Shown piece after piece: positions 27,157-55,005 of a stretch of 64,000 bases of DNA (position 1 is its first letter; each line of letters begins with the position of its first letter). Position numbers and translations under genes: made by a program. The DNA comes from Paludibacter sp. (GTDB lineage Bacteria; Bacteroidota; Bacteroidia; Bacteroidales; Paludibacteraceae), in contig JAQVAV010000006.1 of NCBI GenBank assembly GCA_028690665.1, positions 124,001 to 188,000 on the forward strand, written 5' to 3'. A model generated the notes under the pieces. That model did not search any database. It had not been told where the DNA came from and saw only the letters and a program-made list of their open reading frames with translations.

Positions 27157-28275
27157 ATGAAACCGATTTTTGCAAGAAATAAAGTAGATTTCATCCATAA
27201 GTTAGATGAATTCAATAAAGCTGTAAATTTCCAATCAATCATTATTTTAATGGCTGAAAATAGTGATTGTATGGATGAAGAAATTCAGCATGCAATTAAA
27301 AATAGCTCTAAAACGATACTTGGAGGAGTTTTTCCACAGATAATATTCGAATCGGAATTGAAAGATACCGGGGTGGTGCTTATTCCGGTAGAAAATAAAA
27401 TTGATGTTTATGAGTTTGATTTAAATTATTCTATTATAGAATGTTATGAAACAATGTGTGGCCATATTCCCGGATATTCGGAAGAAAATAAAACACTATA
27501 CGTCTTTTTGGATGCAAGAGGTAAAAGAAAAGATGAATTTATCGAATGTTTGTTTAATTATTTCGGTATAAGTGTGAAATATCTTGGTGGAGCTTGTGGC
27601 AGCAAATCATTTCGGTCAATTCCCTGCGTAATTAGCAATAAAGGGATTAATTCTAATGTAGCTTTATTTGGTATATCTCAAAGATCAGTTTCATTTGCAA
27701 TAGCCAATGGTTGGAAAAGTATATCTTCTACCCTTAAAATAACAGAAGCAGTTGATAATACTGTAGTCACAATAAACTTGAAACCGGCCTATCCGGTTTA
27801 TAAAAATGTTATCAGGGAAATTACCGGCAGAAAAGATATTGATAAAGAGTTTTTCAGGACGTATAAATCTAATCCTTTCGGAATTCTCAAAATAGATGGA
27901 GATTATACAATCCGTGAAGTAGTTGATGTTAATGACGATGTGCTGATATGCAGTGATAGAATAAATAGTGGAGAATATGTTTCTGTTATGCAGGCTACTA
28001 AAGAGGATTTGTGGAATGCTGCACGGGAAGCAATGGAAATGGCCCGTTCTCCGTTCGAAGATTTTAAAACCGAAGACTATTGTACGTTTTGTATCAACTG
28101 TGTCGCCCGCGCATTGTATCTTGGAGATGATTTTAATCAGGAACTGAATATTATTGGAAGCGGAACCAAAGTTTTTGGTATGTTGTCATTGGGGGAGATT
28201 GCTAACCGGGGCGATCATTTTTTAGATATTTACAATAATACTGTTGCAATTGCTGTATGGAAGAAGAACATATAA
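27157..28275 (+). CDS. FIST-domain sensory protein
   Basis: A 372-residue protein with the N- and C-terminal halves of the FIST (F-box and intracellular signal transduction) family: SSKTILGGVF, DARGKRKDEFIECLF and YLGGACGS in the first half (to about residue 205), and a second half with SVMQATKEDLWNAAREAMEMA, a Cys-rich CTFCINCVAR and GMLSLGEIA before the end. FIST domains are thought to bind small ligands, possibly amino acids, and feed histidine kinases. No signal peptide or helix is seen, so it acts in the cytosol. The next gene, a giant hybrid kinase, starts inside its last 19 bases, so they should be made together. Confidence 0.8.
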   Translation: MKPIFARNKVDFIHKLDEFNKAVNFQSIIILMAENSDCMDEEIQHAIKNSSKTILGGVFPQIIFESELKDTGVVLIPVENKIDVYEFDLNYSIIECYETMCGHIPGYSEENKTLYVFLDARGKRKDEFIECLFNYFGISVKYLGGACGSKSFRSIPCVISNKGINSNVALFGISQRSVSFAIANGWKSISSTLKITEAVDNTVVTINLKPAYPVYKNVIREITGRKDIDKEFFRTYKSNPFGILKIDGDYTIREVVDVNDDVLICSDRINSGEYVSVMQATKEDLWNAAREAMEMARSPFEDFKTEDYCTFCINCVARALYLGDDFNQELNIIGSGTKVFGMLSLGEIANRGDHFLDIYNNTVAIAVWKKNI

Positions 28276-31200
28276 ATAAAGAGATTTTGCTGGAACTTGT
28301 TTATGCTTCAGACATCAAGGATGACGAACAAAGCATACTGCGAAAAGTTTTAATGGCTTATTTGAGAAAATTGAATTGTTTTCTGGCCGGGATTTTTGCG
28401 CTGCAAGGTCAGAATTTGGAAAATAAGTATATATTGCCTCACATGTTTTTAACTAATCCTTTGTGGGATACCCTCAAATTTTATATTGCAACCCATAAAC
28501 GGGAATTTGTTGATAAGGCATTTCTTAAATATACAGTTAACGATGATATATTTTATATATTTAAAATTAATGATTATGGCTTTCTTATATTAGGGAGGAA
28601 GAAACCATTGTCTGATATGTTTATTAATGATCTTACACATGTAATCAGTTATTCTGGCAAGGTGCTGACTCAGTCTGTAATAGAAAAAGAAAAAGAAGAA
28701 TTTGAAAAGGCAATAACCCGGGAGAGACAGTTGCTACGTACTATTATAGATAATATCCCTGTACGTATATACGTGAAAGATAACAAGTTACGTAAAACAT
28801 TGGTCAATAATGAAGAACTGGGATTTCTTGGGGTAGAGAGTGAAGACGAAGTTCTGGGGAAAACAGATTATGAATTGTTTGACAGCGAAATGGCCGAAAA
28901 GTTTTTTATAGAGGATGAGAAAGTGCTAAATGGAGATACTTCGATACTCAATGAAGAAAATTATCTTGGCAATAACAGATGGGGAATTATTTCAAAAGTA
29001 CCTTTAAAAGATGTAGATGGAAATATAAACGGGATAGTTGGGCTTGGTATCGATTTTACAGAACAGAAAAGAAACCGGGAACAATTACAAATATTCAGTG
29101 ACTTATTTGATAACCTCTCTGATTCAGTGCAAATTGCATTCGAAAATGGTCAGATGTTTTATATTAATCAAGAGGCTGCCGAACGGTTTGGAGTAAACAA
29201 GGATGATGTCCGAAACTATAAAGCGTGGGAGTTTGAGCCTAATATAGAAAATGTTGCCAGTTGGAATTCTTATGTTGAGCAGTTGAGACTGAATAAGTTT
29301 TTTAGGACAGAAGGGATGCAGATTAACCGCAAAACGGGAAAATCTCTTCCTGTGGAAATGACCGTAAAATATTCTGTTATTAACGGACAAACTTATATTA
29401 CCGGGATTGCACGGGATATTACGGAACGGAAAAGATATGAAGAGGAGTTGAAAAACAGCAACAATCGTTACGAACAGCTTGCAATACAGTCAGGAACAAT
29501 TGCCTGGGAGTTAGATGTAAATGGTATGTATACTTATATTACTCCAGTAGTTGAAAAGGTGCTTGGCTATTCACCGGGCGAACTTGTCGGAATAAAATAT
29601 TTTTATGATATGCTGACAAGTGAAAGCCGGAGTAACACAAGAAAGTTACTGCATAAAATGATGAAACAGCAGCAGCCAATTGTAAACATGGAGATGCAAG
29701 TATATCATAAAAATGGGCATACAATTTGGCTTTTAACGAACGGATCACCTATGTATAGCCCCAATGGGGAATATATTGGATTCAGGGGAAGTGATACGGA
29801 TATAACAGAAAGAAAACTGCAGGAAAAAATTATATTGCAAAATGAAGGCTATCAACGTGCTCTGCTTGAAAATCTTTCGTTGGGAATTATGATTGTTGAT
29901 CCGGTTACCCGTATTGTCGAAACTGTAAATAGTTTTGCAGCTAAAATGTTTAATGCTCTTCCTGAAGATATAATCGGAAAGCAATGTCATAACTTTATAT
30001 GTCCGGCAAAATATGGAGAATGTCCTGTTTGTGAAAGATTTAATATAATTGACAATTCAGACAGGGTTATGTATGATATAAATGGAGGTGCAGTTCCTGT
30101 TTTGAAGACAATTAAAACCATTCATATAAACGGGAAGGTAAAATTACTGGAGAGCTTTATAGAAATAAGAGAACGTAAAGAAATAGAGAGACAACTAAAG
30201 GAAAGCGAAGAGCGAAAAGCTGCATTAATTGCAAGTATGAATGATGTGGTTTTTGTTTTGGATGATCAGCTTAATTTTATAGAATATCATTATCATCGGA
30301 ATTTTGATTTTTCAGTTAATTCGATAGATAGTATTTTATATAAAAAATTTCAGGATGTAATAACTAATAAAGAAGTTACAGACGAAGTTATCCCCGTTTT
30401 TTATCATTGTCTGGAGAGTGGTGAAACTTCTAAAATAGAATTCTGTGTTAATCATAAAAAAGGGCAGAGATGGTACGAAATAACGGTTACACGAATGACC
30501 CTAAATTCCGAAAATGCGCTTACCTGTGTTGTACGGGATATCTCAGAAAACAAACAGCATGAATTGATTATTAATAATCAGATAAAACTCCAGGAACTAT
30601 TAATCAAAATATCAACAACTTATATTAATATAGATGTAAAAAGCACAGAAGATGTTATTAACCAGTCACTTATGGAACTGGGTGAATATGTCGGTGCCGA
30701 TCGGTCTTATATTTTTGATTATGACTTAGACAATAATACATGCACTAATACATACGAATGGGTCCGTACCGGAATTTTTTCCGAAATAAAAAATCTTCAG
30801 GAAGTGCCTCTTGATACGTTAGCTTATTTAGTAGAACAACATGAGAACGGTTTACCTTTTATAATTAAAGATATTGACGACCTTGCTAAAGATGGTCCAA
30901 ATGGGTTACGTGCACATCTTGAACCTCAAAATATTAAAAGTTTAATAACTATTCCGCTTATTGATGAACGAGAATTAATCGGATTTGTTGGATTTGATTA
31001 TGTTAGTCATATTCATCCATACTCGGAAATAGAGAAACAGTTGCTGCAGATTTATGCAGAAATGCTGGTTAATCTCGAAAACAGGAAAAGAGGTCAGAAT
31101 TTTTTGATTTCTCAGGAAGAGAAATATCGTAATATTATATCCAATATGCAGTTAGGATTTGTTCTGATGGACAACTTCAATAATGTTCTGGATGTTAATA

Positions 31201-33035
31201 AACAATTTTGTAATATGTCTGGTTACACGCAGGAAGAACTCAAAGGAAAAAATGCTGCTGAATTTGTGATACCAGGCAAAAAAAAGGATTTGTTGAACTA
31301 TAAAAGGAGTTATCTTAAATCTATTAATATACCGGCCATTGAGATGGTCTTCAGAAAAAAAAATGGTGAAAAAGTTTGGTGGTTGATAAATGGTGCACCA
31401 CAATATAATGATAAAAAAGAGCTTATTGGTACGATATCGGTATTTCTGGATATAACTTCCCAGAAGAAAATACAATCAGATCTTGAATTGTCAAAGAATC
31501 TTGCCGAGGATGCAGCAAAGGCAAAAGAACTTTTTCTGACTAATATGAGCCATGAAATCCGGACTCCACTTAATGTAATCATAGGAATGATAAGAGAGTT
31601 GAGCAAAGAGAATCTTACAAAGAATCAGCGGACATATCTGGAACACTCTGAAGCTGCATCATATCATTTACTGTCAATTGTAAATAATGTGATGGATATG
31701 TCAAAAATAGAGGTTGGAGAATTTGTATTGGAGAATATTGATTTTAATATTTATACATTGGTTGCTAATGTAAAAAGCATATTATCTTCGCGTGCACAAT
31801 CTAAAAAAATTAACATGACTTTTGAGGTTGATCCTCAAATTTGTCAGGCTCTTGTTGGAGACCCGGTAAGACTTAGCCAGGTGTTGATTAATTTTCTTGG
31901 TAACTCGCTAAAATTTACCGATGAGGGTTTTATCAGATTACATATAAGCTCTGTTGCTAAAACAGATACTTACCAAAAAATAGAATTTTCAGTGCAAGAT
32001 TCAGGAATTGGAATGAGCTTGGATTTTCAGCAGAAGATTTTCAATAAATTTACTCAGGAAAACAGTCGGTCGAATCGTATATATGAAGGTACCGGGTTAG
32101 GATTGAGTATCTCAAAGGAGATTATAGAGTTGATGGGAGGCACGATTACTTTTAGAAGTGAGAAAGGGAAAGGCACTGAAATCACTTTTGATGTGAGTTT
32201 CCCTATCGGAAATCAAAATAAGCTTGTTAATCTGGATAAAACAACTAAAAGCTATGATATTTCAGGCTCTCACATTCTGATAGTAGAAGATAATGACATG
32301 AATCGGTTTATTGCCCGCCAAAGCCTTAAACAGGCACAATGTATTGTTGCAGAGGCTTCCAATGGCATTGAAGCTGTTGAGAAAATTAAATCGGGGCGGT
32401 TTGATATCATTCTTATGGATATACAAATGCCTGTTATGGATGGTGTGGAAGCAACTATGAAAATTCGGAACGAATTAAAGAAACAGACTCCTATTATTGC
32501 CTTAACAGCCAATGCTTTTAAACATGATGTAGATCAATATCTTAATTCAGGAATGAATGACTTTTTGATTAAGCCCTATAAAGAGGAAGATTTATATATG
32601 AAAATAGAAAATAATTTGCGGCAGATGAATCGGCCTGTAATAAATTCCGAAATTGACAATATAAATAGTGAAAAAGAAAATATGAAATCAAAAAATGTAA
32701 ATCTATACAGTACCAAACAGATTGAAACACTGGGTGGTGGAGATAAATCTTTTGTAAATAGTATGTTGGAACTATTTGTAAAATTAGCTAATGAAACAGT
32801 TGAACAGATAGAGCAATCTATAAAAATAAATAATATAGAGATTATAAAAAGGGTTTCCCATAAGATAAAGCCAAGTTTGGATAATTTAGAAATAAGCTCG
32901 CTATATGAAGATATAAGATACCTTGAAGCGTTAGATAAGGATGGTCAGATAAATGATGATGTGAAATTAAAGGCCAATAATGTAATCGTGACCCTGAAAT
33001 CAGTTGTTGATCAAATAAATAAGGACTCAATATAA
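28257..33035 (+). CDS. Giant soluble hybrid histidine kinase (PAS x6, GAF, HK, REC, HPt)
   Basis: A 1592-residue sensor kinase with no membrane segment. After a 150-residue N-terminus come PAS domains at about 160-272, 278-396, 400-522, 530-640 and 648-772, a GAF domain at about 780-952 and a sixth PAS at 955-1080. HisKA has NMSHEIRTPLN with H1099, the ATPase domain has NFLGNSLKFT and GTGLGLSIS, the receiver has MDIQMPVMDG with D1388, and a C-terminal HPt has VSHKIKPS with H1535. The fourth PAS holds four Cys (577, 582, 589, 592) that could bind a metal or react with redox signals. Its start overlaps the FIST gene, which suggests that the FIST protein is its input partner. Confidence 0.88.
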   Translation: MEEEHINKEILLELVYASDIKDDEQSILRKVLMAYLRKLNCFLAGIFALQGQNLENKYILPHMFLTNPLWDTLKFYIATHKREFVDKAFLKYTVNDDIFYIFKINDYGFLILGRKKPLSDMFINDLTHVISYSGKVLTQSVIEKEKEEFEKAITRERQLLRTIIDNIPVRIYVKDNKLRKTLVNNEELGFLGVESEDEVLGKTDYELFDSEMAEKFFIEDEKVLNGDTSILNEENYLGNNRWGIISKVPLKDVDGNINGIVGLGIDFTEQKRNREQLQIFSDLFDNLSDSVQIAFENGQMFYINQEAAERFGVNKDDVRNYKAWEFEPNIENVASWNSYVEQLRLNKFFRTEGMQINRKTGKSLPVEMTVKYSVINGQTYITGIARDITERKRYEEELKNSNNRYEQLAIQSGTIAWELDVNGMYTYITPVVEKVLGYSPGELVGIKYFYDMLTSESRSNTRKLLHKMMKQQQPIVNMEMQVYHKNGHTIWLLTNGSPMYSPNGEYIGFRGSDTDITERKLQEKIILQNEGYQRALLENLSLGIMIVDPVTRIVETVNSFAAKMFNALPEDIIGKQCHNFICPAKYGECPVCERFNIIDNSDRVMYDINGGAVPVLKTIKTIHINGKVKLLESFIEIRERKEIERQLKESEERKAALIASMNDVVFVLDDQLNFIEYHYHRNFDFSVNSIDSILYKKFQDVITNKEVTDEVIPVFYHCLESGETSKIEFCVNHKKGQRWYEITVTRMTLNSENALTCVVRDISENKQHELIINNQIKLQELLIKISTTYINIDVKSTEDVINQSLMELGEYVGADRSYIFDYDLDNNTCTNTYEWVRTGIFSEIKNLQEVPLDTLAYLVEQHENGLPFIIKDIDDLAKDGPNGLRAHLEPQNIKSLITIPLIDERELIGFVGFDYVSHIHPYSEIEKQLLQIYAEMLVNLENRKRGQNFLISQEEKYRNIISNMQLGFVLMDNFNNVLDVNKQFCNMSGYTQEELKGKNAAEFVIPGKKKDLLNYKRSYLKSINIPAIEMVFRKKNGEKVWWLINGAPQYNDKKELIGTISVFLDITSQKKIQSDLELSKNLAEDAAKAKELFLTNMSHEIRTPLNVIIGMIRELSKENLTKNQRTYLEHSEAASYHLLSIVNNVMDMSKIEVGEFVLENIDFNIYTLVANVKSILSSRAQSKKINMTFEVDPQICQALVGDPVRLSQVLINFLGNSLKFTDEGFIRLHISSVAKTDTYQKIEFSVQDSGIGMSLDFQQKIFNKFTQENSRSNRIYEGTGLGLSISKEIIELMGGTITFRSEKGKGTEITFDVSFPIGNQNKLVNLDKTTKSYDISGSHILIVEDNDMNRFIARQSLKQAQCIVAEASNGIEAVEKIKSGRFDIILMDIQMPVMDGVEATMKIRNELKKQTPIIALTANAFKHDVDQYLNSGMNDFLIKPYKEEDLYMKIENNLRQMNRPVINSEIDNINSEKENMKSKNVNLYSTKQIETLGGGDKSFVNSMLELFVKLANETVEQIEQSIKINNIEIIKRVSHKIKPSLDNLEISSLYEDIRYLEALDKDGQINDDVKLKANNVIVTLKSVVDQINKDSI

Positions 33036-33041
33036 CATTTT

Positions 33042-36000
33042 ATGAATCCCAGTGTTTTAAGTTTTATATATCTCATATCTGCGCTGATTTCCGTTTTTTT
33101 AGCAGCGTTATCTTTTCGGCGTAAGAATGATGCGATTTCCAGAACATTAAGCTTGTTATTATGTGGTGCTTCTGTCTGGTCTTTTTTTTACGGATTAGAA
33201 ATTGCGGCCACTGCCTTTTGGGCAATCAGGATCTGTCTTACTTTAGAGTATGCCGGAATCGTTTCTATTCCGGTGTTGTACTTATTTTATGTTTTGCGTT
33301 ATAGCGGAAATGAAAATAAGCTAACTAACAAATTTAAGATTTTGATTTCTATTGTTCCTGTATTGACTTTTTTGATACAGGCTACCAATGATTACCAGCA
33401 TTTATTTTATAAAAGTTCTGATTTAGGTTATGCTTTTGGTTATTGGTATCATCATTTCTCTCCGGGTGTTTTTTATTATATACATCTCGTTTATTCTTAT
33501 TCACTCATATTTATAGGAGTTGTGATATTATTCAAAATGTATTCAAAAGTACAGCGAGAAGCCAGACATGCGGTAGGATATATTTTGTTTGCTTCCCTTA
33601 TTCCTTTTCTGGTAAGCCTCATATATGCTTTTGGATATCATCCTATGGGTTTTGTCGATTTAACTCCCCTGGGATTTTTGGTAATGGGTATTATTTTAAT
33701 TATAGGTGTGTTTAATGAAAATATATTTAATATAAAGCCTCTGATTCTTAATTCTTTATTTGAAAGCATTCCAGATGCAATCTTTACACTTAATTTAAAT
33801 TCGGAAATAATTAGTTTGAATCCTGCTGCTGAGAAGCTAATGAAAACGGATTCATTCCGGGGAAAAAAGAATATAAAAGAATTGTTACTCGGAAATTCAG
33901 ACAAAGATGTTAAATGTCCGTATTGTAATACCGAAGCTGATATTGAGGGCAAAACATATACTGTAACATACAATAAGTTATGTAATAATGCCGGAGTTAT
34001 CATTGGAGAAATATTTATTTTGCATGATATCACAAGCCGGATTATTACCGAAAACGCTTTAAAAACTAGTGAAGAAAGATTTAAAGAACTTACTGAAATT
34101 TTCCCGGAAGTAATTTATGAAGCAGACAGATACGGCAATCTGACTTATGTCAACAGGCATGGATTTGAAAAGTTTGGTTTTTTTGATGGCGATTATCATG
34201 GACTCAATATATTGGATTTCATAAGTCCTGGAGATAAAGTTAAGGTACTAGCCCGTTTGAATGAACGTTTTGATGGGGGAAAAGGTACTTTTCACGAATA
34301 TACAGCTGTGAAAAGTAATGGCGAAGAGTTTGATGTTTTGTCATACACTGCCAATATCATGGATGCCGATAAGAAGATCATAGGTATCAGGGGATTTATT
34401 CTTGATATTTCAGAAAGAAAGAGGATAGAATCATCGTTAAGAGAAAGTGAAATAAATTTTCGTTCTTTTTTCGAAACTATGAACGATATGGTTTTTATTT
34501 GTAACGGAGAAAGGCGTATTATTTTTTCGAATAGTGCAATGTGTAACAATATGAACATTCCCATGGAAGAACTTACACAGTTGCATGTTTTAGATCTTAT
34601 TCTTAAATCAGAACAACGTCAGGCCTCAATTACTTTTAATGAAATATTACGGGGGAAAAAACAATCATGCACAATTCCGTTTGTCAGAAAAGATGGCTCT
34701 GTTATTCCCGTAGAGACCCGTATCTGGAGAGGAAAATGGAATGGAGCAGAGTGTGTTTTCGGTATTTCAAAAGACCTGACAAACGAACGGGCAGCATTAC
34801 AAAAATTTAATAAAATTTTTGACAGTAATCCTACTCTTATGGCCTTACTTTCTATTGAAAATCTTCAGATTGCAGAGGTAAACAAAGCATTTCTACAGAA
34901 AACCGGTTATACCGAAGATGAGTGTATTGGAAATACCGTATCAGAATTGAATTTGTATCCGGATTGGCAAAATACGGATTACCTAATGGATGTACTTTGC
35001 CAGAGAGGGCGGGATGGTAATTTTGAATTAAAGATGAAGACTAAAAATAATCATCTTTTATCGGGAGTTTTGTTTTGCGAAGTCATTGAAAATCTTGGGA
35101 AGAAGTTTATACTTACGGTTTTTTCCGATATTACCGAATTGAAACAAATGTCCTCTCTTCAGGAATTGTTGGTCGAAATTGCAGAAAAATACATTAATAC
35201 ATCGATTGAAACTCTTGATAATGAAATCAACAAATCATTAAAAGATGTTGGTGTTTTTGTCAATTCTGACAGAACATATATTTATGAAAAATCAGGAAAA
35301 GATAATAGCTATATCAATACTTATGAATGGTGTCGGAAGGGAATTCCCACTGAAATTGGAACACAGCAATCGAATTTTAATGATTTAATAAAAGCTCATA
35401 AGAAGAATATGCCTTATGTAATTGAGGATGTTGACAAAATTGAGTCTGACTCTCAAATAATCAAATACCTTAAAGCTAAACAGGTGAAAAGTTCAATCTG
35501 TATACCTCTTTATTTGGAAGAAAAATATATGGGTTTTGTAGGCTTTGATTCAATCAGGCTTGTGCACAGATATTCAGAAAGAGAAGTGACCCTATTACAG
35601 GTGTTTGCTCAAATGATAGTCAATGTGCGAAACAGAAAAATAAATAATGATTTGCTGAAAGACCAAATTCTTTTTCAAAAACTTATCAGTGATATATCAT
35701 CAGACTTTGTTTCAGCGACAAATAGCAATATTGAGCAGAAAGTAAATCAGATGCTCAAACAAATGGGCGAATTTTTTAATGTAGACCGCAGTTATCTGTT
35801 ACGATATACCAAAGATACGGAAAAGGAAACCAATACACACGAATGGTGTGCATCAGGCATTAGTTCTCAGAAGGACTCGATCAAAGATGTTGTTATGAAT
35901 GATTTTCCGTGGTGGAAACAGCAGGTTATGTCAAAGAAAATTATTCAGATTTATGATATAAATGAACTGCCTAAAGAGGCTACCGCCGAGAAAAAAGATT

Positions 36001-39799: not shown

Positions 39800-39840
39800 A
39801 TTGAATTGCCAGCTAAAACTGAATTATTTATTCGTTATAT

Positions 39841-42800: not shown

Positions 42801-43635
42801 ATTTGTGAAATTTCCAGATGAATTTGGACAGATATTAATTATTGATGATAACAAAAAAAGCGGAACGATTATTTCTGAAATGTTATCAGAAATGAATATC
42901 AAAAGTGAATATTGTGAAAGTGCACTTGAGGCCATAATGATATTAAAATTAAATTATGATTTTAATATCATATTGATCGATAATAATATTTTTAATACTT
43001 CCGGTGTTGATGTAATAGACATGATTTGTTCCCGACTGAGCATTTCTCCCTTGGATAAACAGTTTGTCGTTATGCACAATTTGACAGAAGATTATCTGTT
43101 TTATGAAGAATGTAAAGATCTTGGGGTGAGTTATTTTCTTACAAAGCCAGTTAGTTTTGACCAATTATACAAGGTACTTCTGGAAATTCAAAATATAGCA
43201 GATATTTCAAAAACGGAGAAGAAAGTTCTATCAGAAAATAAAGGTCACAAAGATAAAATGTTCAGAATTCTGATTGCAGATGATGACATGTTTAATATGA
43301 TGCTTGCAAAAGCTATGATTGGGAATCTTTTGCCAAATGTGGAATTTACAGAAGCACGTTCGGGAACAGATGCCTACAATTTTTTCAGGGATAATGAATA
43401 TGATTTGGTTTTTATGGATGTACAAATGCCAGAAATGGATGGAAATGATGCCACTTGCTTAATCAGGGAATTTGAGCAAAATAGGGGAACTCATGTTCCT
43501 ATCATTGGATTGACAGCAGGTGCATTAAAAGAGGAGAAGGAAAAATGTCTTCAATCGGGAATGGATGAGTTTCTAACAAAACCAATCGATTCAAATAAAC
43601 TGAAAGAAACAATCATTAATTATTTAAATTTATAG
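39841..43635 (+). CDS. Soluble hybrid histidine kinase (PAS x4, GAF, HK, REC x2)
   Basis: A 1264-residue kinase without membrane segments. PAS domains lie at about 65-175, 185-300, 305-430 and 432-560, a GAF at about 570-735, HisKA with H763 in NMSHELRTPLNG, an ATPase domain with GGTGLGLIIS, and two receivers. The first receiver (about 998-1115) has only D1047 in LIDNNIF and lacks the usual MP motif, so it may be weakly active; the second has D1193 in MDVQMPEMDG. There is no HPt, so output to a response regulator would need an HPt in trans, perhaps from a neighbour. The core is similar to that of the kinase at 33042. Confidence 0.88.
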   Translation: MKNKGSIELELLDIISRLKKIVFNANIDSGNSVYDELINVEHDLLLTGKSGSLNELSTLGFSIESVIFNQLGFIWIKDIDGRYVVANKAYASLCGVADPVKLIGKYDGDVWTEEIAKRHIDEDNIVFRTGKTVTTEEKISVNDKSERWLETYKAPVYNANSEIIGLTGFSRDITSRKNALDKVRKLSHAVEQSSVSVIITDTEGNIEYVNPNFVQVSGYQKNFVLGKNPRILKGGNTPPEVYHDLWTTITAGNDWYGEFCNRKANGDTYWERAVVSPIRNESGLITNYVAIKEDVTQLKQKERDIQNVTRQLQDITENISEIFCLLDANCEKFLYISPAFEKITGLTPDIIYHDSKSFYNIIHKDDVDDLLYKFNGYKQNLDFDAEFRLKKVNDAYRWIHARIYPVKNHDGKTERHIVIAVDITKQKETEDILRKSEEKYRLITENSSDVIWVYNLNKKRYTFISSAVKSLRGITVEDAMSEKLSDSLDNESIVTMNKLISSNALNFFALGKETVYSIDEIRQKHKDGHFVWVEVSSMLQYNQQGECELIGVSRDITKRKRTEKELESLTRFQNVLVNMSLNYINMKIGDINQNVFFSLRDLSQFIDAERAMIFSYDWEKKCCNCDFEWRDPALISLQEELKVIPLENMPEWVNQHIRGKIFEIRNVENFEGVSRSDLILHGVKSMISIPLMLDNKCIGFITFDSTKKNHNYIAAEKSLLTVFGQLYINLIQRKNLETGLIQEKENALSANKAKSEFLANMSHELRTPLNGVIGFSELLTQTSLTDVQKQYTNAITTSANALLGVINDILDFSKIEANRMELEIVNTDMAKLLGQCVEVISPAAEKKQLELLLDVPADLPEFAYVDPIRLNQILANLLSNAVKFTAQGEVELKVEYLPVTDKHGKFTFTVRDTGIGITEAQREKLFKAFSQADSSTTRKFGGTGLGLIISDMIARKMGGKIELRSEKDKGTEFFFTIEADTEFSKKEFVKFPDEFGQILIIDDNKKSGTIISEMLSEMNIKSEYCESALEAIMILKLNYDFNIILIDNNIFNTSGVDVIDMICSRLSISPLDKQFVVMHNLTEDYLFYEECKDLGVSYFLTKPVSFDQLYKVLLEIQNIADISKTEKKVLSENKGHKDKMFRILIADDDMFNMMLAKAMIGNLLPNVEFTEARSGTDAYNFFRDNEYDLVFMDVQMPEMDGNDATCLIREFEQNRGTHVPIIGLTAGALKEEKEKCLQSGMDEFLTKPIDSNKLKETIINYLNL

Positions 43636-43657
43636 GCTTAACTATATATAATTAGAC

Positions 43658-44752
43658 ATGAAAGCATTAGATCAATATCTCGTATTAATAATAGATGATA
43701 ATCCTATGAATTTGTTGGTGGCTGCGAAGTCTCTTGAGAATTATGGGGTAAAAACGCTTACTGCAGAAAGTGGAAAAGAGGGTTTGGAAATGCTGAAAGT
43801 TCATACTCCATCATTAATTCTTTTAGATATAATGATGCCAGAAATGGATGGATATGAAGTTTGCAGAAAGATAAAACAAGAGGACAAATGGAAAGATATA
43901 CCAGTCATTTTTCTTACAGCCAATAGCCATATGGAAAATTTGGTAGAAGGTTTTGATGCTGGTGGTGTGGATTACATAACAAAGCCATTTAAACAGGAGG
44001 AGCTTCTTGTTAGAATCAAGAATCATATTGAATTAGCCGAATCAAAAAAGACAATTGTTGAAATGATTCGGTCGAGAGACAAATTATATTCGATTATTGC
44101 ACACGATGTCAGATCCCCGCTTTCAGGTATTTTACAAACTATAGATGCTATTGATCAAGGTTTTATAGATGTTAATAGTGAAGACTTTAAGGAAATAATG
44201 CATCACTTGCGTATTCGTACCCGTGAAACTAATACGCTCCTGACTAGTTTATTACAGTGGACCAGATTGCAGGCGGATACAATTGTTTTGGATTTTCAAT
44301 TTGTAAATATAAAACAAGTGTTGCATAGTTGTATTGAGCTACTTGGAGCTAATGCGCAAGATAAAAAAATACAAATTAATCTGGCTGTTGATGAGGATGT
44401 GTATGCTTGGTGTGATGAAGTTTCAGTACACACGATATTCAGAAATATTATTTCCAATGCTATAAAATTTACTAAAGAAAGTGGATTTATTGAAATAAAA
44501 GTAATCCGAAAAACCGCAAGTGTTGAAATCTCTGTTGCCGATAATGGGGTCGGGATGGCTGAGGAAACAGTTCGGAAAATATTTCGGGAAAACCAACATT
44601 ATACAAGCTCTGGAACTGCTAATGAGCAAGGAACAGGGCTTGGCCTTATGTTGGTAAAAGATTTTATTCGAAAAAATAACGGGCATATCGAAGTTTCAAG
44701 TACTTTGAATGTCGGAACAAAGATTGTTGTTAAATTACCTCTGGAAAAATAG
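43658..44752 (+). CDS. Receiver-histidine kinase fusion
   Basis: A 364-residue protein with a receiver (residues 1-125; D57 in LDIMMPEMDG, K in ITKPF) followed by a kinase core: H149 in IIAHDVRSPLSG, NIISNAIKFT and GTGLGLMLV. This order, REC before HK with no other input, is common for kinases that sit in the middle of a relay: they are switched by phosphate from another kinase and pass it on. It is soluble. The next gene, an NtrC-type regulator, starts 2 bases after its stop, so that regulator is its most likely target. Confidence 0.9.
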   Translation: MKALDQYLVLIIDDNPMNLLVAAKSLENYGVKTLTAESGKEGLEMLKVHTPSLILLDIMMPEMDGYEVCRKIKQEDKWKDIPVIFLTANSHMENLVEGFDAGGVDYITKPFKQEELLVRIKNHIELAESKKTIVEMIRSRDKLYSIIAHDVRSPLSGILQTIDAIDQGFIDVNSEDFKEIMHHLRIRTRETNTLLTSLLQWTRLQADTIVLDFQFVNIKQVLHSCIELLGANAQDKKIQINLAVDEDVYAWCDEVSVHTIFRNIISNAIKFTKESGFIEIKVIRKTASVEISVADNGVGMAEETVRKIFRENQHYTSSGTANEQGTGLGLMLVKDFIRKNNGHIEVSSTLNVGTKIVVKLPLEK

Positions 44753-44754
44753 TT

Positions 44755-46146
44755 ATGTACGAATCTAAACAAAATTTATTAATTATAGATGACGACCCTG
44801 TATATCGTAAACTTTCCAGTTCGATATTGAAAGAGAGGTTTAACGTCTTTACAGCCGATGCTCCCTCTGCCGGCTTATTAATTCTCCGAACTAAAAAGAT
44901 TCATTATGTGATTTGTGATTATTTGTTACCTGAGATGGATGGTCTACAGTTGATAGAGTTAATAAAAACGGAATTTTCTGATGTTATGATTATTGTCGTC
45001 AGTGACTCTGGCAATATGGATACAGTTATTGAAGCGATGAGAAAAGGAGCTGTCGACTATTTTAGAAAACCGTTTACTCCTGCTGATATTTGGATGTCTA
45101 TTGAAAGGTCAGGTAAAATTGCAGAACTTAATAAAACAATTGATTTTGAAAGAAACAAAAATAAACAGCTCAAAGATTTTGTAGATAAGGAATTTGGAGT
45201 CGATATTGTTGGAAGTTCTTCTCAGTTGCAGGAAATAAAAAATCAAATGAGGCTGGTTGCACAAACCCCGGATACTTCTGTTTTGATTTTGGGGGAAAGT
45301 GGAACTGGAAAAGAACTTGTTGCCAGAGGAATCCATAATTTAAGTGATAGAAAAAATGAACTTTTTGGTGCTGTGAATATGTCTGCAATTCCGGAAGCAT
45401 TATTTGAAAGTGAATTTTTTGGACATAAAAAAGGCAGTTTTACCGGAGCTATTGCAGATAAGTCCGGTTGGTTCGAAACGACAAATAAAGGAACCTTGTT
45501 TTTAGATGAAATAGGAGAGATGTCGCAAGGGCTACAAGTGAAACTTTTAAGGGTATTAGAGGATCGTACTTTTGTGAAAGTAGGAACCCAAAATGAACAA
45601 AAATTCGATATAAGAATAGTCGCTGCAACCAACAAACAGATACAGGAGATTACAAATGGGAGTATATTCAGGTTAGATTTATTCCATCGCATAGCCACTT
45701 TTATTATTTATTTACCTCCGTTGAGGGAAAGGCCCGAAGATGTTGTGGAACTGGCTGATTATTACGCAAAAAAATATTCAAATAAATTATCTAAAAATAA
45801 TATAACCTTACATCCCGAAAGTGTATCACTCCTGAGAAATTATAGTTTTCCCGGCAATGTTCGCGAATTAAGAAATATGATTGAAAGAGCTGTGATTTTA
45901 TGTGACGGACATGAATTATTACCTTCCCACTTCTTTTTAATTAACAATTCCGTAGAAAAAAAATCTGATATAACCGTAGAAAAGGAAGAAATTTACAATT
46001 TAGAAGAGATAGAAAAACAAACTATATATAAGGCACTCAGAAAATGTAATTTTAATAAATCTGAGGCCGCCAAACTGCTCAATATTGAATGGAATGCTTT
46101 ATATCGAAGAATTCAAAAATATGGGATATTGCTCGAAAATGAATAA
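44755..46146 (+). CDS. NtrC-type sigma54-dependent response regulator
   Basis: A 463-residue activator. The receiver (1-120) has D55 in CDYLLPEMDG. The AAA+ domain has Walker A GESGTGKE at 180-187, the sigma54-contact loop GSFTGA at 227-232 (GAFTGA in most members; Ser for Ala is a known variant), Walker B in LFLDEIGEM and ATNKQI. The C-terminal Fis-type helix-turn-helix has NKSEAAKLLNIEWNALYRRIQKYG. It should bind an enhancer and open promoters held by RpoN. A sigma54-like promoter lies 96 bases after its stop, before the next gene. It is the only transcription regulator with a DNA-binding domain in the signalling block. Confidence 0.93.
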   Translation: MYESKQNLLIIDDDPVYRKLSSSILKERFNVFTADAPSAGLLILRTKKIHYVICDYLLPEMDGLQLIELIKTEFSDVMIIVVSDSGNMDTVIEAMRKGAVDYFRKPFTPADIWMSIERSGKIAELNKTIDFERNKNKQLKDFVDKEFGVDIVGSSSQLQEIKNQMRLVAQTPDTSVLILGESGTGKELVARGIHNLSDRKNELFGAVNMSAIPEALFESEFFGHKKGSFTGAIADKSGWFETTNKGTLFLDEIGEMSQGLQVKLLRVLEDRTFVKVGTQNEQKFDIRIVAATNKQIQEITNGSIFRLDLFHRIATFIIYLPPLRERPEDVVELADYYAKKYSNKLSKNNITLHPESVSLLRNYSFPGNVRELRNMIERAVILCDGHELLPSHFFLINNSVEKKSDITVEKEEIYNLEEIEKQTIYKALRKCNFNKSEAAKLLNIEWNALYRRIQKYGILLENE

Positions 46147-46241
46147 GTGTCTCAGGGTAGTTCTTCACAAATGAATAAATAAAATTTTGTTTGATTTTGT
46201 AAACCCTTTATTTATAGTATATAAATGTAGTATATTTCTTA

Positions 46242-46256
46242 TGGCATGGGAATTGA
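46242..46256 (+). promoter_or_regulatory. Sigma54-like -24/-12 promoter
   Basis: TGGCATG-GGAA-TTGA matches TGGCAYG-N4-TTGC at all but the last base (A in place of C), with exact spacing between GG and TTG. It lies 38 bases before the ATG of the LruC gene, giving a leader near 27 bases. An 8-base direct repeat TAGTATAT occurs at 46215-46222 and 46228-46235 just upstream. The neighbouring activator gene makes the match more credible than sequence alone would. Confidence 0.5.
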
Positions 46257-46293
46257 TTTTATTAAAATCTAAAAATTATTAAATATAAATAAT

Positions 46294-48393
46294 ATGAGAT
46301 TTGTAAGAAAAATTGTCCCTATTTTGGCTTTGTTAATCTCGATACTTGGTTTTAATTCATGCCTTAATAAGCTAGAAGAAATTCAGGTGGGTTTTGTAAG
46401 TTCTGATTTTGATTACAAGACCATTAAAGAATATAGTGTCAGTATTCAGGCTTTAGACGCTAATAACGATGCATTTAAATCTGCTTATATCGAACTGTAC
46501 ACTTCAAATCCTTTGAATGAAAACGGTACTTTATCTGAAAATAGTGCTTCTAATTTGATTTTTAAAGGAGTAACTGATGCTTCCGGCAAGATGGAATGTA
46601 AAATATCTCCTGCTACAACAGTAGATAGTTTATATGTGCTTGCCCGACAAATTGGATTGCCCAATTGTACTGTTTCAGCTCTATCCTCTACTGATCTTAC
46701 AATTACAATTGGAGGTAATTTTGTAGAAAAACAATCATTAAATTCTGTCGCACAAAAAATAAAAGCAACAACAATTCCTTCTGTTGCAAAAACTAATGAT
46801 CACAAATATTATGTTCTGGGATCATGGAATACATTGGGTGTCCCCAATTATCTAACTACAGATGACGTGATCAGCCAATCATTATTGGATGATATAGATG
46901 CAACACTTCCTGAATATAAATCATTGCCAACAACACATCCTGAATATTTTCAAAGTAATGATGATTCAAAAATTGTGTTAGTAAAGGATGCTGAAGTTTG
47001 GGTGACTTTCGTACACGAAGGGGCTTCATATAAAAATAGTTTGTTGTATTACACCTATCCTACGGGTAGTGAACCAAGTTCTACAAATCAGATTTCCAAT
47101 GCTACTGTTATTTTTCCTAATGTTTCTGGAAATGGTAGTGGACTGAATGGTGGAGGCGGTCTTTATGCCGGCAATAAAGTTCAACTGTTTTACTATAATA
47201 AGGCAACAAACACATATTCGAATATCTTTCCGGCAGGAACAACAGTCGCATGGATGTTTAAATCAAATGCATGGAGTAACTATACTGTTGGGAATGGATA
47301 TAATACATTTTATTCTGATTTGAATTTAAATCCGGAATCGAATACAAGTCTTAAAAAACATAATGTTGTCTTGAAAGATGATGTTCGTAAACTTTTGCTT
47401 TTAGGTTTTGAAGATATTCGTAGGGACCAAAATTCAGATAATGATTTTAATGATGCTGTTTTTTATGCGACAGTTACTCCGTTTACTGCTGTTTCGGGAG
47501 TTTATCAAAAGATAGTTTCAACATCGGATACAGACAACGATGGTGTTGGTGACGAATATGATGAATATCCAAATGATCCAGATAAAGCGTTTAACAATTA
47601 CTATCCTTCAGAGAATGGTGTAGGTACGCTGGCTTATGAAGATTTATATCCTTCTAAAGGTGATTATGATTTTAATGATATGGTCATTGATTATAATTTT
47701 AATCAAATTACAAATGCCAACAATAAAGTTGTAGTTGTTGACATGAAGCTGAATCTAAGAGCTATCGGAGCCTCTTATGTGAACGGATTTGGAATCCAGT
47801 TTAATACAGATCCTGATAATGTAAAATCAGTGACAGGCCAAAATTTATCTGAAAATATTGTTAACTTGTTATCTACGGGTGTAGAGGCCGGACAATCAAA
47901 AGCGGTGGTAATTGCATTCGATAATGCCTTTAAAATTTTACCACATCCGGGTAATGGTATTGGAGTTAACACTACTATTGGAGCAACCTATGTTGAACCT
48001 CAGGAACTTGATTTGAGTATAGAGTTAAACTCTCCGGTAGCTGTGAACGATTTAGGAACTCCTCCATATAATCCTTTTATTTTTATTGATAAAATAAGAT
48101 CTAAAGAGGTTCATTTGCCGACTTATGAACCTACGGATTTGGCAGATGAGAGCTTATTTGGAACCGAAGACGATAACTCAAACCCAACAGCAGGAAAGTA
48201 CTATGTGTCGGATAAATATCTTCCTTGGGCTATCAATCTTCCGGTACAATTTGATTATCCAGCCGAAAAGGAAGATATTACAAATGCTTATCTTTTATTT
48301 AAAAACTGGGCGAATAGTAATGGGGCTGAAAATGTGGATTGGTATTTAAATATATCAGGATATCGAACAGAAAGTAAGATATATAAACATTGA
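46294..48393 (+). CDS. LruC-domain lipoprotein
   Basis: A 699-residue protein with an N-terminal signal and a lipobox-like GFNSC at about residues 19-23, so it should be lipidated and may reach the cell surface. Residues about 25-120 look like a beta-sandwich. A segment with LLGFEDIRRDQNSDNDFNDAVFYA (in parts, residues 370-390) and a second with LYPSKGDYDFNDMVIDY (about 450-465) mark the DUF4114/LruC type, and DTDNDGVGDEYDEYPND at about 410 is a calcium-binding thrombospondin-3-like loop. Such proteins are probably adhesive or matrix components, but the role is not established. It follows a sigma54-like site and ends at a hairpin terminator, so it is likely transcribed alone. Confidence 0.82.
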   Translation: MRFVRKIVPILALLISILGFNSCLNKLEEIQVGFVSSDFDYKTIKEYSVSIQALDANNDAFKSAYIELYTSNPLNENGTLSENSASNLIFKGVTDASGKMECKISPATTVDSLYVLARQIGLPNCTVSALSSTDLTITIGGNFVEKQSLNSVAQKIKATTIPSVAKTNDHKYYVLGSWNTLGVPNYLTTDDVISQSLLDDIDATLPEYKSLPTTHPEYFQSNDDSKIVLVKDAEVWVTFVHEGASYKNSLLYYTYPTGSEPSSTNQISNATVIFPNVSGNGSGLNGGGGLYAGNKVQLFYYNKATNTYSNIFPAGTTVAWMFKSNAWSNYTVGNGYNTFYSDLNLNPESNTSLKKHNVVLKDDVRKLLLLGFEDIRRDQNSDNDFNDAVFYATVTPFTAVSGVYQKIVSTSDTDNDGVGDEYDEYPNDPDKAFNNYYPSENGVGTLAYEDLYPSKGDYDFNDMVIDYNFNQITNANNKVVVVDMKLNLRAIGASYVNGFGIQFNTDPDNVKSVTGQNLSENIVNLLSTGVEAGQSKAVVIAFDNAFKILPHPGNGIGVNTTIGATYVEPQELDLSIELNSPVAVNDLGTPPYNPFIFIDKIRSKEVHLPTYEPTDLADESLFGTEDDNSNPTAGKYYVSDKYLPWAINLPVQFDYPAEKEDITNAYLLFKNWANSNGAENVDWYLNISGYRTESKIYKH

Positions 48394-48412
48394 TATCTAA
48401 AATTTTAGTATT

Positions 48413-48450
48413 AAAATGCTGGTGAAATTTTATTTTGCTGGCATTTTTTT
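48413..48450 (+). terminator. Rho-independent terminator after the LruC gene
   Basis: Arms AAAATGCTGGTGAAA (48413-48427) and TTTTGCTGGCATTTT (48433-48447) pair over 15 positions with four G-T pairs and a 5-base loop. A T-rich stretch follows. It starts 20 bases after the stop. Confidence 0.7.
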
Positions 48451-48829: not shown

Positions 48830-48839
48830 GTTTGCAAAC
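48830..48839. promoter_or_regulatory. Palindrome upstream of the EPS promoter
   Basis: GTTTGCAAAC is a perfect 10-base palindrome 47 bases before the -33 element at 48887. Its position suits an activator site, but a 10-base palindrome could occur by chance. Confidence 0.2.
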
Positions 48840-48886
48840 CGGAGGTAGTAACAAGCAGCTTATTAAAAAACCTTTAATTCTTGCGA

Positions 48887-48916
48887 TTGTCGGATAATAC
48901 AAATCCTTTATCTTTG
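48887..48916 (+). promoter_or_regulatory. Bacteroidota housekeeping-type promoter of the EPS operon
   Basis: TTG at 48887-48889, 19 bases, then TATCTTTG at 48909-48916: both the -33 and the -7 element fit, and the spacing is in the usual range. The first ATG is at 49030, so the leader is about 105-110 bases, long enough for control at the RNA level. No hairpin stands out in it. Confidence 0.65.
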
Positions 48917-49029
48917 CTTGTCGAAATTAGAAATATTGTAATATGTTATTTCACGCTAGGGTATCTTTATGATTAATCTATATTTGTCTTTTTGAATTTC
49001 TAACAATAGAATTATAATAATTTCATATT

Positions 49030-49401
49030 ATGAAAAAGAAGATATTAATTATTGATGACAAGACAGAGTTTAGACGGTTAACAAAAACTATACTGTCAAG
49101 CAAATATGAAGTTCAAAGTGCTGAAAATGGAATAGAAGGGCTTGCGCTACTCCAAAGTGGTTTTATGCCCGATTTGATTGTAACAGATTTAATGATGCCT
49201 GTGCTCGGAGGAAAAGATTTTGTTGAACAAGTAAAAAGCAGCGGGGCATTTAGTCATATTCCGGTAATTGTGTTATCAAGTATTGATAAGAGTGATGAAA
49301 AAATAAAACTTATCAACTTAGGAGCCAATGATTATTTGGAGAAGCCATATAATCCGGCAGAGTTATTGGCCCGGATTGAAAATCTTTTAAAATTAAAATA
49401 G
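49030..49401 (+). CDS. Stand-alone receiver (CheY-like)
   Basis: A 123-residue receiver only. D53 in VTDLMMPVLGG is the phosphate site, the acidic pair is in LIIDDKTEFRR, and the Lys is in YLEKPYNPAEL. It has no output domain, so it must act by binding another protein. It is the first gene of the EPS operon, and the next gene starts 45 bases downstream and itself has a receiver-like N-domain. A role in switching the first step of polysaccharide synthesis is therefore plausible, but it is inference. The three hybrid kinases upstream are possible phosphate sources. Confidence 0.88.
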   Translation: MKKKILIIDDKTEFRRLTKTILSSKYEVQSAENGIEGLALLQSGFMPDLIVTDLMMPVLGGKDFVEQVKSSGAFSHIPVIVLSSIDKSDEKIKLINLGANDYLEKPYNPAELLARIENLLKLK

Positions 49402-49446
49402 GATAAGGATAATACAGATTCTTATTCATCTTATAATGTCTTTGGT

Positions 49447-50565
49447 ATGAAGTATAAAGCTATCTATATTGGTACTGATCACGAACTGATGGAGAGACTA
49501 AATGTGGAAACAGATGTTCTTGATCTACAGGTTACTGACAGACCTCTTGGTTTTTGGGGTAATATCTCGGAAATAGACTTGATACTTTTTGATATTGCTG
49601 ACGATGTGAAAGACATAGCCTTGATAAATAATCTTAAAGAGGAAATAGAAAAAAATAAGATAGTCGTTTTTGCAATTAATCGATTGAAACGGCCCAATGA
49701 TTATTTGAAATATGGTATCCACGATGTATTTGATGCGGATTTTGATGTTGAAAAATTGCTCAAAAGATTTGAGTTTATAAGATTGAATTACGATAAGCTT
49801 TTAAGTCCGGATGCAGAACAGCTTGTGTTGTTTAAAGTTCCACATTGGAAACGTGTGTTTGATGTTGTCTTTTCTTTAATTGTTTTGATATTATTATTCC
49901 CATTTTTTATTTTAATTGGGCTCGCAATAAGGTTAGAGTCTAAAGGTAAAGTGTACTATTCGGCGTCGAGGGTAGGTACGGGTTATAAGATTTTTGGTTT
50001 TCTTAAGTTTAGAAGCATGTATATTGATGCAGATAAAAAAGTCGATACTTTATTAAAGGAAAATCAATATACAAGTTTGGAAGCAGAGGATACAAACATG
50101 CATGAAGAGTTTATAGATAACGGACCTGTGCTAATTTCGGATGATGGACTGGTACCGGAAGGAAAAGTAAAAAAGCAAAAAGCAATAAAACGTGAGAATG
50201 CATTCTTTAAGGTTGCTAATGATCCACGAATAACCAAAGTTGGGCGTCTTTTGCGTAATACGAGCATCGATGAATTGCCACAGTTCATTAATGTTTTGAA
50301 AGGTGATATGTCTATCGTTGGCAATAGACCATTACCATTGTATGAAGCAGAAATGTTGACGACAGATGAATGGTCAAAAAGATTTTTGGCTCCGGCTGGT
50401 ATTACTGGTTTGTGGCAGGTTACTAAAAGAGGCGGTGCTAAGAAAATGTCTGCAGATGAGAGAAAACAGTTAGATATCGAATATGCTGAGAAATTTTCAT
50501 TTTGGTTTGATATGAAAATTTTAATAAAAACTATACCGGCTATGCTTCAACACGAAAACGTATAA
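49447..50565 (+). CDS. Initiating phosphoglycosyl transferase with receiver-like N-domain
   Basis: A 372-residue protein. Residues about 1-125 look like a receiver: YKAIYIGTDHELMERL, LILFDIADD with D49 where the phosphate Asp belongs, VVFAINR, and GIHDVFDADFDVEKLLKRF. The usual second Asp pair and Lys are poor, so it may be a pseudo-receiver. Residues about 135-372 are a bacterial sugar transferase (monotopic PGT): one membrane hairpin at about 138-160, FLKFRSMYIDAD, D275-E276 in TSIDELPQ, and GNRPLP and GITGLWQV. It transfers a sugar phosphate to undecaprenyl phosphate, the first committed step. A charged insert (about 200-260) separates the halves of the catalytic domain. The four-helix/CoA-like N-domain of most large PGTs is absent. 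Confidence 0.85.
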   Translation: MKYKAIYIGTDHELMERLNVETDVLDLQVTDRPLGFWGNISEIDLILFDIADDVKDIALINNLKEEIEKNKIVVFAINRLKRPNDYLKYGIHDVFDADFDVEKLLKRFEFIRLNYDKLLSPDAEQLVLFKVPHWKRVFDVVFSLIVLILLFPFFILIGLAIRLESKGKVYYSASRVGTGYKIFGFLKFRSMYIDADKKVDTLLKENQYTSLEAEDTNMHEEFIDNGPVLISDDGLVPEGKVKKQKAIKRENAFFKVANDPRITKVGRLLRNTSIDELPQFINVLKGDMSIVGNRPLPLYEAEMLTTDEWSKRFLAPAGITGLWQVTKRGGAKKMSADERKQLDIEYAEKFSFWFDMKILIKTIPAMLQHENV

Positions 50566-53494: not shown

Positions 53495-53522
53495 GTTTAT
53501 TAACGAGCGATAATTTCAGAAT

Positions 53523-54992: not shown

Positions 54993-55005
54993 TTGTGAAG
55001 ATTTT

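Follow-up and report, generated by a model that had tools for sequence, protein, structure and literature searches.

In Myxococcus xanthus, the kinase HsfB, which has an N-terminal receiver, phosphorylates the NtrC-like regulator HsfA, and HsfA directly controls PilY1.1, a surface protein with a DUF4114 domain that acts in exopolysaccharide (EPS)-dependent motility (passages of PMC9109919). In the PrsK/PrsR system, the NtrC-type regulator is mostly encoded near EPS genes, and a two-part site precedes genes for extracellular proteins (passages of PMC1569441 and PMC9850573). A FIST protein is co-encoded with a histidine kinase in NosP-NosK and in the Vibrio NosP-VpsS-LuxU-LuxO relay (passages of PMC12570481 and PMC6769237). 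More generally, sigma-54 has been linked to EPS and lipoproteins as a controller of the bacterial exterior (PMC3162934, in part), and a comparison of sigma-54 regulons covering Bacteroidota includes GrpE/GroES as sigma-54 dependent (PMC12316311, in part). The string "Bacteroid" occurs 0 times in the main text of PMC3162934 and "exopolysaccharide" 0 times in PMC12316311, and the passages of both papers name neither LruC nor an lruC operator. Among the matches listed for LruC, DUF4842 and DUF4114, no title or opening of an abstract linked LruC to an EPS operon or mentioned the operator described here, and the same was found for titles and openings of abstracts on sigma54, NtrC or RpoN together with EPS in Bacteroidetes.

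The window analyzed here, 64,000 nucleotides of a Paludibacter sp. contig, contains seven nearly continuous plus-strand genes (27157-46146) upstream of the LruC gene. They encode a FIST protein (27157..28275; 372 amino acids), hybrid kinase 1 (28257..33035; 1592 amino acids; PAS/GAF-HisKA-HATPase-REC and a weak Hpt match of 20.6 bits, below the Pfam cutoff of 24.6), hybrid kinase 2 (33042..38138; 1698 amino acids; 7TM-PAS/GAF-HisKA-HATPase-REC-REC-Hpt), a secreted protein (38138..39799), hybrid kinase 3 (39841..43635; 1264 amino acids; PAS/GAF-HisKA-HATPase-REC-REC), a receiver-kinase (RK) of HsfB-like layout (43658..44752; 364 amino acids; REC-HisKA-HATPase), which adjoins NtrC in relatives, and an NtrC-type sigma-54 activator (44755..46146; 463 amino acids). 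The places, lengths and domains that the first-pass annotation had given for the reading frames of the block, lruC, the receiver and the phosphoglycosyl transferase were all confirmed by the open reading frame list, Pfam and NCBIfam. A counterpart of kinase 2 lies at the corresponding position in L174 and G108/L122. The activator matched PF00072 (REC), PF00158 (AAA+ sigma-54 interaction) and PF02954 (Fis-type HTH) above their cutoffs, contains GSFTGA, which we take to be the loop motif of sigma-54 activators, and has the recognition helix WNALYRR. The genome has a single RpoN match (PF04552; 181.3 bits). The predicted target, lruC (46294..48393, plus strand; 699 amino acids), encodes a protein with DUF4114 and DUF4842/TIGR04456 domains (270.1 bits on TIGR04456 against a cutoff of 36), and the N-terminus of LruC suggests a lipoprotein. 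Taken as a whole, these genes are best explained, and we think probably correctly so, as a sigma-54 relay dedicated to LruC, a presumed matrix lipoprotein.

The RK-NtrC-LruC(DUF4114) order has the same layout as HsfBA-PilY1.1 (PMC9109919, in part): a REC-HK kinase, an NtrC-like regulator and a DUF4114 protein, the last of which appears to be the target on account of its operator. This likeness is one of layout. PilY1.1 is a type IV pilus protein, whereas LruC is a predicted lipoprotein encoded at an EPS locus, and the window has extra hybrid kinases. With PrsK/PrsR, the locus shares the general plan of a conserved upstream site made of an activator motif and a sigma-54 box, as seen before lruC (PMC1569441 and PMC9850573, in part); however, the proteins there are subject to PEP-CTERM sorting rather than being lipoproteins such as LruC, PrsK is one transmembrane kinase, and the window NtrC scores below the PrsR cutoff (TIGR02915; 340.5 versus 502.6 bits). 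The parallel with both systems suggests that an NtrC-type regulator gating a matrix protein is a recurrent design.

The conserved operator before lruC consists of a palindrome near TTCRTTTTCGAA followed by a sigma-54 -24/-12-like box, with spacings that are mostly helically phased. In the window, the box TGGCATGGGAATTGAT (46242..46257, plus strand) lies 52 bp 5' of the lruC ATG. The best enhancer-like palindrome, TTCATTTTCGAG (46132..46143; read on the minus strand; 1 mismatch), falls within the 3' end of ntrC, its center 105.5 bp from the -24 GG, and a motif scan placed a second, weaker palindrome, TTCACAAATGAA (46164..46175; 2 mismatches), at the commonest spacing, with its center 73.5 bp from the -24 GG. 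A sigma-54 weight matrix gave 11 matches in the window, none of them before lruC at the threshold used; it misses the lruC box because the -12 half of this box is TTGA, and in the operator boxes this half is mostly TTGA or TTGT and not TTGC. The matrix was therefore replaced by the pattern TGGCAY/TGGAAY-N5-TTG.

Across the 4.05-Mb genome, the strict patterns yielded 52 sigma-54-like boxes and 12 palindromes, and pairs no more than 200 bp apart occurred only at lruC; by this strict motif pair, a broad NtrC regulon is rejected for this genome. Neither box alone was enriched genome-wide over the reversed-pattern control (52 versus 53 sigma-54-like boxes; 12 versus 12 palindromes). This would fit a view in which the kinases and NtrC lie beside lruC and the EPS genes by chance and NtrC acts elsewhere, and near kin of the window NtrC do adjoin other genes (L122-L128). 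Against such an adjacency, which we regard as very improbable, the gene order and the operator recur together, and the operator is absent at loci without NtrC. The fetched loci, 2.71 Mb in total, contained the composite 16 times (control, 0): 9 times before lruC, 6 times before small secreted-type genes in loci with this type of NtrC and once elsewhere. Where NtrC was encoded within 6 kb, a palindrome with at most 1 mismatch preceded lruC in 10 of 16 cases; this fell to 2 of 66 where no NtrC and no phosphoglycosyl transferase (PGT) was seen nearby, and to none of 8 where PGT alone was seen. The corresponding counts for both boxes together were 7/16, 0/66 and 0/8. The sigma-54 box alone occurred before 7 of the 66 unlinked genes, and both boxes were present in 0.025% of 20,000 random 300-bp stretches. 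These upstream counts exclude reading frames shorter than 500 amino acids, without a DUF4114 match or with less than 150 bp upstream; they include loci on which the palindrome had been spotted by eye, and the box patterns were relaxed once some of the sites were known. Among loci that had played no part in deriving the palindrome, the composite was present in 5 of 7 with a WNAL-helix NtrC (L123-L128 and L133) and in none of 11 others (L130-L132 and L134-L141). Overall, 4 of 17 WNAL-helix loci (L126, L127, L176 and L192) have no strict composite. Both boxes are absent from L195, which has the order kinase-RK-LruC-EPS with no NtrC in the examined flanks. The spacing between palindrome and box was phased at about 10.5 bp (R, 0.89; 13 genomes; p, 5e-5 against a uniform null), with L176 (83.5, in phase) left out and a 2-mismatch site used for G207; the G197 spacing of 65.5 is out of phase. 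Control of lruC by NtrC, as proposed in the first-pass annotation, is thus supported by a conserved operator, at which binding remains putative.

An order-wide scan for the strict composite gave five matches in 3 of 295 genomes and none with the reversed pattern. The scan misses the window site (gap of 98 bp, 1 mismatch) and that of G163, and it is therefore stricter than the sites themselves. Of the three composites in G197, the first precedes lruC, another precedes a further gene that encodes an LruC-domain protein to judge by position and frame length, and the third sits at a contig edge. The single composite of G033 lies in its RK-NtrC contig, and that of G143 precedes the gene for a 160-amino-acid secreted-type protein. 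We lean slightly towards the view that hybrid kinases, the receiver-kinase and an NtrC with a WNAL recognition helix form a surface-switch cassette that has been used repeatedly in Bacteroidales. Its DNA code would be a TTCRTTTTCGAA element in helical phase with a -24/-12 box, and evolution would have connected it to various surface products: matrix lipoproteins of the LruC kind next to EPS genes in some genomes and DUF4402-type secreted proteins in others, with the polymer possibly made independently and only the protein that retains it being gated. The neighbors of the DUF4402-locus proteins may be a chaperone and an usher, an identity for which Pfam gave no support, and five proteins of these loci gave nothing above the cutoff on NCBIfam.

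Of 80 LruC loci retained for comparison, six (L172, L173, L174, L176, L178 and L233) show the order NtrC-LruC-receiver-PGT-OEP-Wzc-Wzy, with the receiver-kinase before NtrC in five and a hybrid kinase before RK in four; G163 shows it too, split over two contigs. Plebeiobacterium sediminum AAT is an isolate with a collinear locus. The relay block upstream of LruC and the EPS genes, noted in the first-pass annotation, therefore recurs in relatives; because the order from NtrC onward is found in loci of other families, it is more than chance. FIST is not part of the recurring core. In the window, the EPS locus, apparently of Wzx/Wzy type, begins with a stand-alone receiver (49030..49401; 123 amino acids) and a PGT (49447..50565; 372 amino acids) and continues with OEP, Wzc/Wzz-like, Wzy_C, acyltransferase, UDP-sugar dehydrogenase, glycosyltransferase and AsnB-like genes (50571..61616), all on the plus strand; its reading frames extend to 63774, and the Pfam scan stopped short of the last ones. 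Pfam recognized PGT, OEP, Wzy and a chain-length/GNVR protein, the GNVR match (24.7 bits) being under the cutoff of 27.7. Of the receiver-like domain assigned earlier to the PGT N-terminus, the fold was supported, but it is a pseudo-receiver, with E, H or Q in place of the phosphoacceptor Asp in 7 of 7 aligned orthologues.

In the six collinear relatives, lruC and the receiver gene are 11 to 185 bp apart (about 19 bp in G163, from an inferred start), which makes cotranscription plausible there, and one sigma-54 promoter could drive lruC and EPS genes together. This favors direct control of EPS synthesis by the relay, either through a single transcript or through an EPS promoter activated by NtrC. 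For the window, we consider this rather unlikely: the gap is 636 bp, a terminator-like hairpin follows lruC (48413..48447, plus strand; 1 found versus 1.4 expected by shuffling, and so weak alone), and positions 48394-49029 contain neither a palindrome at up to 2 mismatches nor a sigma-54 box. In Aquincola, moreover, the matrix protein is RpoN regulated and the EPS genes seemingly are not (PMC9850573, in part). The first-pass annotation had suggested that the relay could control polysaccharide as well; for this genome, a direct action of NtrC on the EPS operon was not supported. The operon is probably transcribed separately, and what the relay gates would therefore be the matrix protein, not the sugar polymer.

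In the dedicated relay that we favor, which we infer to be a multi-input one, the hybrid kinases would pass phosphate, partly via Hpt domains, to RK and/or the NtrC receiver. Phosphorylated NtrC would bind the palindromes before lruC and activate RpoN polymerase at the -24/-12-like box. LruC, whose function is suggested by its neighbor genes and domain, may then, as a surface lipoprotein with DUF4114, hold or organize the neighboring exopolysaccharide on the cell. For the extracellular matrix of environmental Bacteroidales, this would provide a regulatory code that can be tested, made up of regulator type, enhancer, promoter and target, and it points to a likely role of LruC-domain proteins with exopolysaccharide.

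The FIST protein (FIST_N-FIST_C; PF08495 and PF10442) is the sole FIST match of the genome and stands beside a histidine kinase, as in NosP; its gene overlaps that of kinase 1 by 19 bp. By manual reading, FIST is immediately followed by a kinase gene in 20 of the 31 regions examined in the order, and in a tree the window protein groups with the FIST proteins of L207 and L035. In V. cholerae, the NosP relay leads through LuxO to the control of vps (PMC6769237, in part). LuxO is sigma-54 dependent according to its NCBIfam name. A NosP-like switch, in which heme-bound FIST inhibits kinase 1 and NO is the main signal, would fit this layout, and FIST also occurs at the far end of the L233 relay locus and adjoins NtrC, RK and lruC in L207. 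However, L233 is the only one of the six collinear loci with FIST in the examined flanks (by a phmmer query that misses some divergent FIST), so that the relay seems not to need it, and the window protein has Asn184 where all 12 other members of the aligned clade have His, which makes NO sensing only putative. We therefore view NO as the main signal as unlikely. FIST was found in 30 of 295 genomes of the order, and among the 31 regions fetched around them, of which some were truncated where a contig ended, a script flagged NtrC in one (L033), PGT in one (L035) and LruC in none, which rules out FIST as the organizer of the block. No PDB relative was found by sequence at an E value of 1 or less, and nothing relevant on FIST in Bacteroidetes was among the literature matches listed. 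The FIST-kinase 1 pair looks accessory, an add-on of NosP-like layout that would supply one further input to the relay.

The secreted protein (553 amino acids) between kinases 2 and 3 has a T9SS tail (TIGR04183; 24.1 bits; cutoff, 23), no Pfam family and no PDB relative by sequence at an E value of 1 or less. Foldseek matches of its AF2 model (pLDDT, 69) include RbmB, AlgE and PL6, and the model indicates a probable right-handed beta-helix of polysaccharide lyase/epimerase-like fold. Its gene was found in one of the six collinear loci (L174), within the flanks examined, and looks accessory to the relay. Homologues were found near EPS genes, and the protein may be an add-on that acts as a matrix-modifying enzyme.

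The first-pass annotation had placed FIST, three hybrid kinase, beta-helix protein, receiver-kinase (RK), sigma-54 activator (NtrC) and LruC genes beside an exopolysaccharide (EPS) operon, and an ORF check and domain profile searches bore out each gene, position and domain. The source genome comprises 4.05 Mb in 29 contigs. FIST and kinase 1 share 19 bp, kinase 2 and the beta-helix gene share one base, and the intervals between kinases 1 and 2 and between RK and NtrC are 6 bp and 2 bp, respectively; we infer that 27157-46146 is a single seven-gene operon. Gaps of 147 bp and 636 bp separate this block from lruC and lruC from the EPS operon, respectively. Upstream of the block is a 1,480-aa ORF (18454-22896) with a T9SS-tail match (genome C24:146687-146890); the genome has 142 such matches.

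Among 295 genomes of the order, kin of NtrC (E <= 1e-100), LruC (E <= 1e-30) and the phosphoglycosyl transferase (PGT; E <= 1e-70) occur in 63, 58 and 41, respectively, and regions were examined around 20 NtrC and 20 LruC matches, a subset of all matches. The nearest PGT by far is that of genome G163 (394.7 bits versus 319.9 for the next). One G163 contig carries LruC-REC-PGT-OEP-Wzc-(450 aa)-Wzy, its end truncating an NtrC C-terminus, and another carries kinase, 393-aa receiver protein, RK and NtrC, with the remainder cut by the contig end; the two contigs presumably adjoin. LruC loci were compared in the best 80 of 522 relatives, obtained by LruC alignment against genome contigs. In 6 of these 80, NtrC-LruC-REC-PGT-OEP-Wzc-Wzy is collinear (L172; L173, a Paludibacter jiangxiensis MAG; L174; L176; L178; and L233, Plebeiobacterium sediminum AAT). 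RK lies upstream of NtrC in five of the six, L176 having a kinase fragment at the contig edge, and a same-strand hybrid kinase precedes RK in four (L172, L173, L174, and L178), the L233 kinase being on the opposite strand. The order is thus complete from kinase to EPS in 4/80 and from NtrC onward in 6/80. Neither NtrC nor PGT was seen in the examined flanks of most of the 80 loci. L174 and G108/L122 both show the series of a 7TM kinase with Hpt followed by another hybrid kinase, RK and NtrC. The phosphate route in the relay is a prediction. In the L173 MAG, an in-frame stop interrupts lruC (9992-12095; 77-aa start, 608-aa rest).

The Myxococcus HsfBA relay (PMC9109919) comprises a receiver-kinase, an NtrC-like regulator and a surface protein with DUF4114 that is linked to motility dependent on EPS. 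Since HsfBA and PrsK/PrsR (PMC1569441, PMC9850573) work in a similar way, the relay proposed here is a variation on a known design. Algoriphagus and Roseivirga EPS loci (L217, L219, L225, L237, and L247) read REC-LruC-PGT-...-OEP-Wzc without NtrC in the flanks, so the association of LruC, whose function and surface location are predictions, with EPS loci extends beyond the relay.

The window has a single sigma-54-like box of the form TGGCAY-N5-TTG, which lies 52 bp 5' of lruC. A palindrome near TTCRTTTTCGAA, found by eye from lined-up upstream regions, occurs once in the window at <=1 mismatch (46132-46143), and a second, weaker copy lies at 46164-46175. With a relaxed pattern, [TC]GG[CT][AT][CT]-N5-T[TA]G, loosened after the sites had been inspected, a box follows the palindrome upstream of 10/10 lruC genes in eight EPS- and NtrC-containing loci (the window, G163, L172 with three lruC, L173, L174, L176, L178, and L233). 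Group counts used a stricter box (TGGCAY-N5-T[TA]G) and the palindrome at <=1 mismatch. The palindrome was found upstream of 10/16 NtrC-linked lruC genes, 2/66 with neither NtrC nor PGT seen within the flanks examined and 0/8 PGT-only genes; the box was found in 8/16, 7/66 and 0/8, and both in 7/16, 0/66 and 0/8, L173, which actually carries both, being scored as a miss owing to a miscalled ORF start. In 20,000 random 300-bp stretches, the frequencies were 1.7% (palindrome), 0.3% (box) and 0.025% (both). The seven unlinked lruC genes with only the box suggest other activators there. Locus L195 (kinase-RK-LruC-REC-PGT-OEP-Wzc-Wzy) lacks both boxes (8649-11975), as well as NtrC in the flanks examined. 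At the sequence level, these comparisons establish the gene content, the recurrence of its order, the conservation of the operator and the link between operator and NtrC presence; NtrC probably binds at this candidate operator. In L172 (5120-12068), a palindrome precedes each of three tandem lruC genes, the middle one having two exact copies 20 bp apart.

A scan of 2,710,145 bases for the composite of both boxes gave 16 matches, versus 0 with a reversed-box control: 9 upstream of lruC, 6 upstream of small signal-peptide-type genes, two of which use a common promoter, and 1 elsewhere (L057). Among loci outside the palindrome derivation, the composite is present in 5/7 with a WNAL recognition helix (L123-L128 and L133) versus 0/11 others, L130 (WNALHRK, without an operator site) being placed among the latter. 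In all, 13/17 loci with a WNAL..RR helix, read by eye and with the G163 helix taken from L142, have it. The strict composite is absent from L126, L127, L176 and L192, although the first three retain an exact palindrome; in L192, none was found within one mismatch near lruC. The helix label changes 3 times on the NtrC tree, versus a shuffled mean of 11.8. In L122 (9291-15688), an NtrC near the window's on the tree has an altered recognition helix and no composite operator, and the genes that follow are, by appearance, presumably carbohydrate enzymes. In L124 (G207; 4772-12299), a tandem NtrC pair is followed by a row of small genes for secreted proteins, of which some have sigma-54-like boxes of their own; both members tested are DUF4402. 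This domain was detected in 5/9 proteins of alternative-target loci, one match being below cut-off. In L253/L259 (G143 C19), a strict composite precedes the gene for a 160-aa secreted-type protein. In L207 (3775-15814), FIST, NtrC, RK and hybrid kinases adjoin lruC; the NtrC is from another clade, and no palindrome was found within one mismatch.

The palindrome centre lies 72.5-75.5, 83.5-85.5 or 105.5 from the -24 GG, with outliers at 64.5/65.5. A test of helical phasing gave R 0.88 over the full set of 21 values and R 0.89 over 13 values, one per genome and without L176 (p 5e-5 versus uniform 60-107); the related sequences are not independent. The window's entry is its weaker site, the stronger (105.5) being likewise in phase; the G207 entry is a 2-mismatch site, and a 1-mismatch site in that genome yields the identical 74.5. 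Later spacings, outside the phase test, were 94.5 (L133), 106.5 (L123) and 75.5 (L057). The window's genome has one RpoN and ten sigma-54 activator domain matches, six of them strong. Neither element was enriched genome-wide (52 boxes versus 53 control; 12 palindromes versus 12 control); only at lruC do they lie within 200 bp of each other.

FIST (PF08495) occurs in 30/295 genomes of the order. Of 31 regions around FIST genes, several of them possibly incomplete where a contig stops, 20 have a kinase immediately 3' of FIST (read by eye); PGT and NtrC were flagged in one each, and LruC in none. The layout resembles that of NosP; however, FIST has Asn184 where all 12 other members of the aligned clade have His, and we therefore do not class it as NosP.

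Homologues of the beta-helix protein occur within the EPS operon of L174, at L185 and L186 (loci with EPS glycosyltransferases), near kinase-FIST in G119/L036 and, partially, at L228. Its AF2 model (four sequences; mean pLDDT 69, <50 at 418-475) matched mainly beta-helix polysaccharide enzymes in Foldseek, including RbmB, AlgE epimerases and PL6 lyases (TM 0.17-0.55 among the 50 matches listed). On this model, a beta-helix fold is likely for the secreted protein; a polysaccharide-enzyme activity would be a guess. For the PGT N-terminus, the model has a receiver fold (mean pLDDT 78.9, top match at E 4.9e-6), and since its acceptor Asp is replaced by E, H or Q in 7/7 aligned orthologues, it is a pseudo-receiver.
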